A DNA stretch of 20,310 nucleotides from positions 1-20,310 of IMG/VR virus record IMGVR_UViG_3300010339_000103, one strand, 5' to 3'. A program made the translations under genes and the position numbers. The stretch comes from a virus. Shown here one piece after another: positions 15,044 through 18,518 of this stretch (position 1 is the first letter of the stretch; each line of letters begins with the position of its first letter). The notes under the pieces are model-generated. The model had not been told where the DNA came from, did no database searches, and was given only the letters and a program-made list of their open reading frames with translations.

Positions 15044-17793
15044 ATGGGATTCTCCCCAGCCGGAAACCAGCTTTCCAACCTGCCTCAGTCCACGGTAAAG
15101 TTTTCATAGAACTTAACGGAAAACCGTAAACTGTTGATTCCGCGGTAATTATGTATGACAAAAAGTTCCGTGAGAACCTTTGACCTAAGGGTTCTTTAAA
15201 TCTTGCTATATCCGTCAAAGTATGATACTATCATAAGAGACGGAGGAAAGACCTCATGCAAGCCAAAAATAATGGGTACCTCGCAGGAATTCTAGATGGT
15301 GAAGGCTGTATTTCCATTTACATTTCTAAGCGATGGGATAAGAGACAAAACAAATTTGGCTTTCGACCCGTGTTAGAGATTTCAATTTATCAAGCCGATA
15401 AGCGTTTGACGGATTGGCTTCAGTTTCATTATGGTGGTAAATGTTACGAACACACCATGAAAAATTCTACACGACCCGGATATCAATGGATTGCTCCTAG
15501 AGGCAAGGACCGCGAGTTGTTCGTTCTTGAGATGATGCCATATTTAATTCTCAAAAAAGAACAGGCTCTGTTAGCTCTTGAATACCTGAGACTCCCTAGT
15601 ACAGGGGACCGATGTAAAGAGCGATTTGACCTTGCCCGGAAATGTTCCACGTTTAATCGTAAGGCGTCGTCTACGAGTAAGATTGCCGCAAAGTACGAAG
15701 AAGCGATGAAAGCCTTTGAGGAATCCCCAACGACTAATACGCAAGACGTGTCAAGCCCCAAACTTGACTAAAGATAGAGTCTGAACTGCATGGTGACATG
15801 CAGAACGTGACCCCAGTGATGGGGACAACAATAACAAATTTGGAAGGCGCAAACCCCGTTCGTCGCATGCTCGGAACGTCTCGACCTGCCGATGAATTCT
15901 GGTAACCAGTATTTTTAAGCATCTTGTACTGGATATGCGATATTTGACCTAATTGGAGATGTTCATGTACGTTCCGCTGGCCGCTAACACCGTCCAGACT
16001 ACGGAAGGCACTGTGGGTTCTTCCCTCAGCGTCAGCGTACTGACAAATACCGCGACTATCGGTGAATTAATTGCTAGTTCACCGTAAAAACTTGACTATA
16101 TCGGTGGATATCTGCTATACTAAAATAGTAGACAATACCGAGGGAAGACACTATGAACGATAAACATCGTTGGCCGTATGTGGCTGGAATCGTGGATGGT
16201 GAGGGTAGTTTTTCCATCTATTACAACAAACATAGCGAGAATCACAATGCTCGCATTACGATTGGGAATACTTCAATTGAACTAATTAAATATTTGATGC
16301 ATAATTTTGGTGGAAAGTTTTATTCTTTTGACCCAAAAGACATGCACGGATTCAATCGTAAAACTATGCATTCTTGGAGACTCAGTGGGGTGAAGAATAA
16401 AGAGGATTTTATTCTAGGAATTCTTCCACATTTGGTTATCAAGAAAGAGCAAGCAAAGGTTTTCTTAGAGTTTTTGAGAATACCACGTTGTAATCAATGG
16501 TCGCTCAAGACTGATGTTGCAAAAAACAAAGAATTACGCGACAGTCTGATGCATAAATTATCTGCACTTAACCACGGTAGTGAACCTCTAACGACTAATA
16601 CGTCAAGCATCAGCAGCGATGCTGTAAAGATAGAGTCTGAACTCATGGGCGACCATGAGAGTGTCCCTAGTGTGAATTAGGGGACGTTCACGTTCCGTGA
16701 ACAGTCTTAAATCCTAAACAACTTTGATGCAGATTACGCGAACTTTAGTTCGCTCAGTCTTGCAACTGCCATTGATAACACAGTTGAGAACGTTGCCCGT
16801 GAAATGTCGTATCGCCTTGGCGAGTCGTTGTCCGCACTTGTGCGTGCAACCGCTGACGGCGCATCCAGCATTGACGCAAGCGTTCTTACACAACTCGCCC
16901 AGTCCAGCACTTCGAGTTTCACCGCTCTGTCGCTCTCTCAAATCCGTAACAGCGTTCAATCGCTGGCGGGTCGCAGTGTGCGTCCGTTTGATGAAGCTTC
17001 CAAGAGCTTCTCTGGTGTGATCCATCCGTTCGCATTGGGCGACGTGATTGCTGACAACAGCAATGACGCACCAATTGACATTCTCAAGCACACCCCGGTG
17101 GGTTTGATGAAGATGGATTCGCTGGTGTCGGTTGATCTGACCGAAGTTATCGAACTGCCTACAACGGGAGTCCAGTTTTATCAGACTAACCTTGTTACGC
17201 AGACCATTAACTACGGCGGAACTACCGGTCTGACGGCACTTCGCACTTACATCTTCGGGCGTGATGGTATCTTCTCCATTAACCTCGGAGCCAAGGGCGA
17301 CACCGGTTTCGGTGATGGCGAATGGCGTAACATTGAATGTAATATTGTTCAGAATGCGGAGCCAACCGTTGCCGATCCTGAAGGTTTGATCCCTGGATAT
17401 ACAAAGTCTGTCCAGGTTATATCTAGTAAACTAAAAGCGATGTCTGCTACCGCAGGTTGCTAATTGCTAGATAGGCGTAGTCATGTAAGATATTGGGACT
17501 TCTTACAGGGTTCACTTTACTACGTCACTCGGCCCTAAATGATAAGTATTGGGGCGAGTAATAAACCCACTCTGATTGACTTGGAAGCTGAAATGGCTAA
17601 CAAGGCGGAAGCTGAAAGGCACCGTGAGAGACTAAGTGAGCGGGCACCGAAAGGTGATGCGATAGTCCGAACTTGCAGGAATAACAATTGCAAGAGACTA
17701 GCAGAAATGTCTAGTCCCGCTGAAAAGCGAGTAACAATATTGGATACAACTATTAGGATGCGCCAGATTGACGCTGCTTCGGCGATCTCCTAA
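15044..17793 (+). CDS. Major capsid protein, N4-gp56-like, seven exons
   Basis: The capsid protein is rebuilt by joining 15044-15103, 15154-15179, 15843-15912, 15956-16067, 16727-17398, 17496-17536 and 17743-17793. The total is 1032 nt, one open frame, 343 residues. In order the exons give: MGFSPAGN..QSTVKF; YDKKFRENL; KAQTPFVACSERLDLPMNSG; EMFMYVPLAANTVQ..TIGE; YADYANFSSLSLATAIDN through GLIPGW; TSYRVHFTTSLGP; DTTIRMRQIDAASAIS. The NSG plus YVPLAA and TIGEYADY features, and the EGT element, fit the N4-gp56 capsid family (HK97 fold). Only the 672-nt fifth exon is a long ORF by itself; every other exon runs into a stop if read unspliced. The joins were placed with group I rules (U before, G at the intron end, P1 and P10 pairing) and family expectation. 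The ribosome binding site (CAGGTAA) is weak. Confidence 0.8.
15104..15153 (+). other. Miniature intron-like element A (50 nt)
   Basis: The first exon of the capsid gene ends in TTT at 15103 and runs into TAG three bases later than needed; the frame resumes at TAT 15154. P1: exon GUAAAGUUU (15095-15103) pairs with GAACUUAAC (15109-15117), one A.A mismatch, U.G wobble at the splice site. P10: UCAUA (15104-15108) pairs with the 3' exon UAUGA (15154-15158). The element ends in G. In between is one hairpin (CGGAA at 15117-15121 with UUCCG at 15138-15142). There is no room for a group I core. Confidence 0.65.
15203..15246 (+). promoter_or_regulatory. Promoter and SD-hiding hairpin of the intron 1 endonuclease
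   Basis: TTGCTA (15203-15208) and an extended -10, TGATACTAT (TACTAT at 15226-15231), with a 17-base spacer, form a plausible sigma-70-type promoter. The same DNA folds as RNA: TCCGTC (15211-15216) pairs with GACGGA (15239-15244), covering part of the GGAGG ribosome binding site, around an inner TATGAT/ATCATA stem. A message starting at this promoter would lack the 5' half of the outer stem, so the site would be free; read-through capsid mRNA would hide it. Confidence 0.5.
15256..15771 (+). CDS. LAGLIDADG homing endonuclease in intron 1
   Basis: The 171-residue protein has one LAGLIDADG helix, GYLAGILDGEGCISIYIS at residues 7-24, in which DGEG provides the acidic metal ligand. The single motif means it would act as a homodimer. 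FHYGGKCYE, LEMMPYLILKKEQALLALEYLRLP are the other conserved parts of the domain. It would cut intron-less alleles of the capsid gene at the intron insertion site to drive homing. ATG 15256 follows GGAGG nine bases away. The last dozen codons (TTNTQDVSSPKLD) run through the ribozyme's P7, P3 and P8, so protein and RNA core share sequence. It is a paralogue of the endonuclease in intron 2. Confidence 0.9.
   Translation: MQAKNNGYLAGILDGEGCISIYISKRWDKRQNKFGFRPVLEISIYQADKRLTDWLQFHYGGKCYEHTMKNSTRPGYQWIAPRGKDRELFVLEMMPYLILKKEQALLALEYLRLPSTGDRCKERFDLARKCSTFNRKASSTSKIAAKYEEAMKAFEESPTTNTQDVSSPKLD
15913..15955 (+). other. Miniature intron-like element B (43 nt)
   Basis: The capsid frame runs AACCAGTAT and then TTT TAA; it resumes 43 bases later with GAGATGTTC. 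P1: exon CCAGUAU (15906-15912) pairs perfectly with GUACUGG (15926-15932) including a U.G pair at the splice site. P10: AGCAUCUU (15918-15925), directly before it, pairs over eight bases with the 3' exon GAGAUGUU (15956-15963). The last base is G. The rest is one short AUAU-GCG-AUAU hairpin plus a UUGACCUAAUUG tail. No catalytic core can be present. Confidence 0.7.
16092..16145 (+). promoter_or_regulatory. Promoter and SD-hiding hairpin of the intron 2 endonuclease
   Basis: TTGACT (16092-16097), 18 bases, then an extended -10 TGC-TATACT (TATACT at 16116-16121) make a near-consensus sigma-70 promoter. As RNA, TCGGT (16101-16105) pairs with ACCGA (16137-16141) with an inner TACTA/TAGTA stem, overlapping the start of the GAGGGA ribosome binding site. 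The arrangement is the same as in intron 1 and parallels the known control of intron-encoded endonucleases in T4. Confidence 0.6.
16153..16680 (+). CDS. LAGLIDADG homing endonuclease in intron 2
   Basis: A 175-residue protein with the single motif PYVAGIVDGEGSFSIYYN at residues 8-25, followed by FGGKFYSF and ILGILPHLVIKKEQAKVFLEFLRIP, block for block like the endonuclease in intron 1. It would act as a homodimer and recognise the capsid gene at this second site. ATG 16153 follows GAGGGA. The C-terminal part (TTNTSSISSDAVKIESELMGDHES) is read through the P7, P8 and P9 RNA elements. The two endonucleases are clearly related, so one intron or its endonuclease gene may have arisen from the other by transposition. 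Confidence 0.9.
   Translation: MNDKHRWPYVAGIVDGEGSFSIYYNKHSENHNARITIGNTSIELIKYLMHNFGGKFYSFDPKDMHGFNRKTMHSWRLSGVKNKEDFILGILPHLVIKKEQAKVFLEFLRIPRCNQWSLKTDVAKNKELRDSLMHKLSALNHGSEPLTTNTSSISSDAVKIESELMGDHESVPSVN
17399..17495 (+). other. Short intron-like element 3 (97 nt)
   Basis: The capsid exon ends CCTGGAT at 17398. P1: CCUGGAU pairs with GUCCAGG (17410-17416), U.G at the splice site. P10: AAGUCU (17404-17409) pairs with the 3' exon GGACUU (17496-17501). The exons join as GGA-T/GG-ACT, giving GWTSYRVHF. The body folds as one domain: UAUCUAG (17420-17426) with CUAGAUA (17467-17473), enclosing AGCGA/UUGCU and UCUGC/GCAGG stems. I find no P7/P3/P8 arrangement, and 97 nt is below the size of any complete group I intron I know. 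Confidence 0.65.
17537..17742 (+). ncRNA. Group I intron 4, ORF-less (206 nt)
   Basis: The exon CTCG-G-CCCU pairs with GGGG-CGAG (17551-17558; one bulged G, U.G at the splice site), and GUAUU just before it pairs with the 3' exon GAUAC (P10). Core: GACTA (17630-17634) with TAGTC (17663-17667) forms P7; CACC-GAAA-GGTG (17645-17656) is P8 with a GNRA loop; CTTGCA/TGCAAG and ACTAG/CTAGT are 3' hairpins. It ends in G, and joining gives SLGP-DTTIRMRQ. This is a compact but complete-looking group I intron. Confidence 0.85.
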
Positions 17794-17888: not shown

Positions 17889-18518
17889 ATGAAAGCGCAT
17901 TCGGAAGAAGTACGTCAAAAGACTTTAGAATTATTGCGTCAACAGCGAAGCATGCAGGAAATATCTACCCGAACAGGGATATCTGTAGGTACGATAGAAG
18001 ATTGGGCTGCTGAGTGGCGAAAAGACGGAATGCTTGTTGAATACAAGCAAGAGGGTTCGAGATTTATAAAACATGCTCAACATCTGTCAAAAGGTTATTA
18101 CAAGTGCATTCGAAAGAGATATAATGGAATGCGCTGGACAGATAAGATGTTGAATCGCCAGTTTGGATTTGATAATATTTTACAAGCGATTCATTACTAT
18201 TTGAAGAATGGTCATCCTAGACCCTGTGCGTACTGTGGGAGATTCCCCGGTATCGGTAAAGTGTGGGGGCTAGACAGGATTAATTCTTCTTTAGGACATG
18301 TACCTGGAAATTTGGTCCCTTGTTGCAGTTCTCATTTCGAAAGCCCGCAACTTTCCTGCCAAGCCAGCAAATCAAAATTTTCATTGCTGTTTTGGATGGA
18401 AAGTAGTATGTCACGGGCTAACGGTGGAATTGTTCCGTTTCGTGTTGTAGAACAGCGGTTAGAGAGAATCTATACGCTGGCGAAAGAACTTGGTTCATTT
18501 GAACCAGAAAAGGAATAA
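17889..18518 (+). CDS. HNH endonuclease with N-terminal helix-turn-helix
   Basis: Residues about 5-45 look like a helix-turn-helix (EVRQKTLELLRQQRSMQEIS, then TGISVGTIEDW). The nuclease part has CAYCG near residue 113, then GLDRINSSLGHVPGNLVPCC, the core of phage HNH homing nucleases: DR...N...Y/HxPxN...CC. After PCCSS there is an extra HFESPQLS before CQASKSKFSLLFW, so the second CxxC is stretched. It is still one open frame of 209 residues. ATG 17889 follows TTAGGAGGG. It is a free-standing endonuclease gene next to the last capsid intron, a usual place for enzymes that promote spread of neighbouring introns. Confidence 0.8.
   Translation: MKAHSEEVRQKTLELLRQQRSMQEISTRTGISVGTIEDWAAEWRKDGMLVEYKQEGSRFIKHAQHLSKGYYKCIRKRYNGMRWTDKMLNRQFGFDNILQAIHYYLKNGHPRPCAYCGRFPGIGKVWGLDRINSSLGHVPGNLVPCCSSHFESPQLSCQASKSKFSLLFWMESSMSRANGGIVPFRVVEQRLERIYTLAKELGSFEPEKE

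Follow-up and report, generated by a model that had tools for sequence, protein, structure and literature searches.

Introduction

In the usual view, each self-splicing intron carries its own catalyst. In group I introns such as those of the phages T4 (td) and Twort and of the mycobacteriophage LittleE capsid gene (PMC3706429), the 5' exon ends in a U that forms a U.G pair, a guide pairs with both exon ends as the helices P1 and P10, and the intron ends in G. Here, we describe insertions with the same exon-end U, U.G pair, P1/P10 guide and terminal G in the major capsid protein gene of a soil phage, within a stretch of 20,310 nucleotides (nt) from IMG/VR record IMGVR_UViG_3300010339_000103 that is called the window below. 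These insertions, which we call mini-introns or minis, differ from group I introns in that they have no P3-P9 core and are only 32-98 nt long across the window and its relatives; at some of the sites, related phages carry a full group I intron instead. The sequences suggest a natural two-part splicing system, which we consider probable, where the next intron along the transcript supplies the ribozyme that cuts out guide-only, core-less introns.

Group I introns with little core have precedents, since small degenerate group I introns of 56-81 nt have been described in the ribosomal DNA (rDNA) of Phialophora and lichens; like the minis, these are very short and keep P1, P10 and a G.U at the 5' splice site while the core is largely gone (PMC3160393, PMC8527467). 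They differ from the minis in lying in ribosomal RNA genes, in being reported as a single monophyletic group, in their terminal U and in a claimed P7-like pairing, whereas all 43 distinct minis that we found end in G and the host gene is a protein-coding capsid gene. Self-splicing or an unknown machinery has been proposed for the fungal introns, and no obligate neighbouring full intron has been reported for them. Minis that proved able to splice without help would count as a variant of these introns.

Engineered spliceozymes and trans excision-splicing ribozymes resemble the system proposed for the minis: their group I core cuts out a core-less intron of roughly 100 nt that is not its own, the splice sites are paired, and the interior sequence is largely free to vary (PMC4094466, PMC6155759). 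These systems are artificial and hold the guide in the ribozyme, which is a separate molecule, whereas here the guide lies in the mini and the ribozyme on the same transcript. Split group I introns of organelles likewise show natural group I splicing of non-contiguous parts (PMC3873408, PMC10027690), but they are one complete intron broken in two, while in the proposed system an intact core would also work on a second intron. Neighbouring introns of one transcript also interact in the exon skipping of tandem group I introns in phage Twort orf142 and Coxiella 23S (PMC10136302). There, each of the two introns has its own core and an exon is missing from the product, in contrast with the minis, where all exons are retained. 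Translational bypass elements, as in T4 gene 60 and the byps of yeast mitochondria, are likewise short and interrupt coding genes whose product can be made only if they are skipped. Unlike these, the minis have no matching take-off and landing codons and carry group I signals.

The earlier note on this window, which was made from the DNA letters alone, knew of no described natural case of such introns. This holds for excision by a neighbouring intron, as the literature searched yielded no natural case in which one group I intron excises another (subscription journals and most preprints lay outside the coverage), but not for small core-poor introns as such, given the fungal examples (PMC3160393, PMC8527467). 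In these searches, the removal of a core-less intron by the core of another group I ribozyme was found described only for engineered RNAs.

Structure of the capsid gene in the window

The capsid gene lies on the plus strand at 15044..17793 and consists of seven exons (15044-15103, 15154-15179, 15843-15912, 15956-16067, 16727-17398, 17496-17536 and 17743-17793, all on the plus strand) separated by six interruptions, and an uninterrupted homologue is present in PP885686. The junctions were determined by a spliced protein-to-DNA alignment, codon by codon, with introns allowed in any phase and with a profile of 37 uninterrupted relatives. Considering that this alignment is blind to splice rules, the junctions are set by homology independently of them. 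The six insertions were placed at 15104-15153 (50 nt), 15180-15842 (663 nt), 15913-15955 (43 nt), 16068-16726 (659 nt), 17399-17495 (97 nt) and 17537-17742 (206 nt), so that minis (m) and full introns (F) follow each other in the order mFmFmF. The joined exons encode a capsid protein of 343 amino acids (aa), of which the first 327 align gaplessly and with 82% identity to the uninterrupted capsid protein of the cultured Tunturiibacter phage Tunturi_3. The three short insertions had been proposed at these places in the earlier note, together with the claim that they restore the capsid frame, and both points are borne out by the alignment to uninterrupted relatives; the gene itself ends at 17793, beyond the span of 15104-17495 that the note had considered. 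A sliding junction for mini 1 between its GTA repeats (GTA...GTA) was dropped because relatives show VKFYDKKF or VKYYDKKF at this place.

Guides of the three mini-introns

The guide is laid out in the same way in all three minis: the terminal U of the 5' exon pairs with an internal G, the bases 3' of this G form P1 with the 5' exon, and the bases 5' of it form P10 with the 3' exon, contiguous with P1. In mini 1 (50 nt, 15104..15153, plus strand), P1 pairs 15098-15103 with 15109-15114 and P10 pairs 15154-15158 with 15104-15108, with the pair U15103.G15109 and the terminal G15153. In mini 2 (43 nt, 15913..15955, plus strand), 15906-15912 pairs with 15926-15932 as P1 and 15956-15963 with 15918-15925 as P10, the U.G pair being U15912.G15926 and the last base G15955. 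Mini 3 (97 nt, 17399..17495, plus strand) has P1 between 17392-17398 and 17410-17416, P10 between 17496-17501 and 17404-17409, the pair U17398.G17410 and the terminal G17495. The P1 and P10 lengths of minis 1, 2 and 3 are thus 6+5, 7+8 and 7+6 base pairs (bp), and when the inserts were shuffled with the exons fixed, guides of this quality arose by chance with p = 4.6e-3, 3.0e-4 and 4.5e-4, respectively. RNA folding recovered P1 for each of the three minis, in the minimum-energy or the centroid structure. A long, stable hairpin is predicted in the tail of mini 3 (z -2.96 for the fold of 17386-17508), and therefore its 97 nt are effectively short; such a hairpin is unlike the bare tails of 15-19 nt in the shortest minis of the family.

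A group I catalytic core (P3-P8 with the P7 guanosine site) is absent from the minis, in which only about 15-80 nt lie beyond the guide, and an Rfam search of the window returned no match at the minis. The earlier statement that the minis follow the substrate rules of group I introns (P1 plus P10, U.G pair, terminal G) and leave no space for the core therefore stands for the three minis of the window, and the substrate rules extend to 43 of 43 in the family. With the core absent, the minis are not group I introns by membership, and from their sequences they appear to work like the substrate half of one.

Mini-introns in related capsid genes

To place the window among its relatives, viral contigs were scanned with several capsid queries and then subjected to the same alignment procedure. 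In these public viral contigs, 43 distinct minis of 32-98 nt were found at 12 capsid sites; a search of related phage capsid genes for similar insertions had been suggested in the earlier note. A U before the mini, a terminal G and the U.G pair are present in every one of the 43, as are a P1 of 5-10 bp and a contiguous P10 of 4-12 bp. At thresholds of P1>=5 and P10>=4, the guide was found in 43/43 true pairs and in 1/1486 combinations in which minis and junctions were swapped across the whole family; random controls of this kind were what the note had named as a possible refutation. Where a single junction is possible, it reads U|...G (21 of 21 minis). Exon and guide show compensatory changes at seven P1/P10 positions of homologous sites. 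At aa 18, 21, 23, 31, 53, 54 and 300, some phages have a mini where others have a full intron, as expected for derivatives that have lost their core. In some relatives, 21-nt "insertions" at aa 229-256 were rejected as alignment artefacts, because they are paired with compensating deletions.

Of the 30 minis found first, 20 cause a frameshift, and each of the remaining 10, which are a whole number of codons long, introduces an in-frame stop. The capsid exons are under purifying selection, with a whole-gene nonsynonymous divergence (dN) of 0.05-0.17 and a synonymous divergence (dS) above 1, which is saturating, whereas the mini tails diverge freely. This contrast argues that minis have long been carried by genes that need an intact capsid protein, and since the flanking exons on both sides are under selection, the minis would have to be removed in expression. 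Simple deletion inside introns could create minis, so that they might be dead remnants, or else assembly errors, in disused genes; this is scarcely tenable in view of the purifying selection in all exons over dS >1, the compensatory guide changes and the finding of the same mini elements in contigs from different metagenomes.

The insertions could also be skipped in translation, as in T4 gene 60, where ribosomes hop over the insertion in a programmed bypass. Mini 1, with its 50 nt, is like the gene 60 gap in length and has matching GTA triplets, which lie 6 nt off the homology-defined junction. However, matching take-off and landing triplets occur in just 2/30 minis, and bypass gives no reason for U|...G, the U.G pair, P10 or an adjoining full group I intron. 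We rejected it for the missing codons and regard it as hardly credible.

A complete intron directly follows each mini-intron

Among complete capsid genes, 70 have no insertions, 36 have full introns only, 39 have minis and full introns, and none has minis only. The 27 distinct complete architectures comprise 37 minis, and a full intron stands directly after every one of these (37 of 37); besides the mFmFmF of the window, relatives have mF, mFmF, FmF, mFF, FmFmF and more. If the labels were exchangeable, 15.2 misses would be expected, while none was observed (p 9e-11, with shared ancestry ignored). The rule was noted after the first set of minis, and 13 of 13 distinct minis from two later scans then conformed to it. 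Only two contigs, L050 and L085, appear to be exceptions, and in both the alignment stops at aa 331, before the expected partner. The separation between mini and intron is 20-215 nt over 21 distinct site pairs, and this number of different pairs argues that the mini-then-full order arose repeatedly.

This order bears on how the minis could be spliced. Each mini might splice itself through a minimal non-canonical fold, as has been claimed for the Phialophora rDNA introns of 63-75 nt; in vitro splicing has been claimed for a 67-nt intron (PMC3160393), and the P1 hairpins of the minis form unaided in folding. Against this, the shortest minis have 15-19 nt past the guide and no common motif except a T/A-rich end and the G, and self-splicing would explain neither the partner rule nor why no gene without a full intron, including the 70 uninterrupted ones, holds a mini. 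We therefore consider it very unlikely. Free, excised group I introns from this or another phage gene could alternatively act in true trans, so that the next downstream intron would not be special. The substrate anatomy would be the same, the portal gene of some relatives also has full introns, and engineered spliceozymes work in that way (PMC4094466). True trans action predicts neither the strict order (0/37 violations) nor the absence of minis-only genes, though, and seems unlikely to us.

Mini and partner may also have travelled together. In a near-isogenic pair, L031 (the empty allele) and L036, identity is 99% from the full intron at aa 23 to the mini at aa 54 and again past the full intron at aa 90, while the exon between this mini and the intron at aa 90 shows 84% identity, as if mini, exon and intron had been transferred as one tract. 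In the pair L058/L052, identity drops from about 20 nt before the mini at aa 314 through the gene end. Joint transfer of a mini with its partner is thus likely in at least one case, L031/L036, judging from these alignments. The earlier note had called the minis MITE-like, a term that would call for independent movement of the short element; what bears on this is the L031/L036 pair, which suggests that a mini moved along with its partner. If the association came only from such transfer in full-intron homing, the mini would be spliced by something else, such as a protein of the host or the phage, and for the degenerate group I introns of lichen rDNA, removal is likewise ascribed to an unknown machinery (PMC8527467). 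Co-conversion should reach both flanks of the cut, but minis lie only upstream, and the 21 different site pairs show repeated re-pairing, which makes this explanation improbable.

Partner introns

Mini 1 is followed 26 nt downstream by full group I intron 1 (663 nt, 15180..15842, plus strand), which matches Rfam RF00028 with E 8e-4, below the gathering score, and holds a LAGLIDADG open reading frame (ORF) at 15256-15771. Full group I intron 2 (659 nt, 16068..16726, plus strand) lies 112 nt downstream of mini 2; its RF00028 match has E 0.09, also below the gathering score, and its ORF at 16153-16680 is LAGLIDADG-like by eye with no Pfam match. Mini 3 has as its partner an ORF-less full group I intron of 206 nt (17537..17742, plus strand), which lies about 41 nt further along and has covarying core helices and P7 strands. 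When 20 ORF-less full introns were aligned, P3, P4, P6, P8 and P9 covaried, with two-sided changes in 34 of 38 pairs, and the P7 strands were conserved (GACTA/ATAGTC-type). One such intron, in L003, scores 59.5 bits, over the gathering score of Rfam Intron_gpI. Almost half of the partner introns (20/43) are no longer than 260 nt, and in L094/L095 and L107 the gene's sole full intron has 200 or 222 nt, so that no intron-encoded protein from the gene itself is needed. A terminal G is present in 58 of 58 occurrences of partner introns.

Some full introns at aa 31, 53, 91, 190 and 212 seem to have A as their last base at the junction set by homology, and their P7 strands look normal and of the G type (for example L050 9237-9886, L078 8366-9139, L051 9338-10000 and L065 8622-9823). 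No mini lies directly upstream of any of these.

Proposed mechanism

We think it probable, on the strength of the sequences, that the minis are non-autonomous group I-type introns, each excised by the core of the next complete intron downstream while this is still in the transcript. The earlier note had attributed catalysis to introns 1, 2 or 4; minis do occur only in genes with complete group I introns, and the partner rule narrows the likely catalyst to the mini's own directly downstream intron. That splicing takes place, which core performs it and in which order the events follow are points that we infer from the anatomy. The minis would keep only what the ribozyme recognises, namely the exon-end U, a guide for both exon ends, a short linker and the terminal G. 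The downstream core would take the P1 of the mini into its active site, a first step would cut after the U with guanosine, and a second step would join the exons at the terminal G of the mini via P10. Afterwards, the partner intron would excise itself. The core would have to act while tethered to the transcript, and minis would lie only upstream of their partner because an upstream intron is probably already spliced out when a downstream core is still attached. As to origin, the core of an intron was probably lost where a downstream intron could stand in. The chemistry is plausible, since engineered group I ribozymes excise 100-nt introns in trans (PMC4094466).

Several points weigh against this mechanism or soften the evidence for it. 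All contigs were read as DNA. The p-values of the partner rule ignore shared ancestry, and joint transfer could explain part of the mini-partner association, though not obviously its one-sidedness. No specific pairing of mini tails with partner introns was found beyond chance (mean rank 0.48). The tie-break among 1-7 near-equal junction placements preferred U|...G; the 21 unambiguous cases agree without it. Finally, in a comparison that took in introns 1 and 2 of the window, contiguous P10 is weaker or mostly absent in partners compared with other full introns (Mann-Whitney p 8e-6), as in five introns at aa 54 with a mini upstream versus 8 bp in L115 with no mini upstream. This would suit a partner that splices itself slowly and deals with the mini beforehand, but the difference is confounded with insertion site.

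Other genes

Minis were sought beyond the capsid gene as well. The portal gene of relatives yielded no convincing ones, the sole short insertions there being accompanied by deletions in the alignment of divergent copies. With 12 further Tunturi_3 proteins, a coarse tblastn search for gaps gave no mini-type insertions, and no prophage copies were found in GTDB genomes. In relatives, the portal gene is interrupted near its start by one full-size insertion of 188-247 nt or by two, sometimes close together, which are presumably group I introns (L116 5092-5609, L117 2663-3168, L080 3095-3522 and L013 191-693). In the window, a free-standing ORF at 17889-18518, just past the capsid gene, has an N-terminal helix-turn-helix (Pfam) and a C-terminus that is HNH-like by eye, and its product is possibly a homing endonuclease.

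Implications

With partners down to 196 nt and substrates down to 32 nt, the proposed reaction is testable in vitro on one short transcript. If the proposal is true, the annotation of phage genes overlooks very short, frame-restoring introns. One ribozyme serving a catalytically empty neighbour would then be a living model of introns becoming dependent on a shared splicing machine, and a group I counterpart of the presumed step in which spliceosomal introns gave up catalytic parts of their own.

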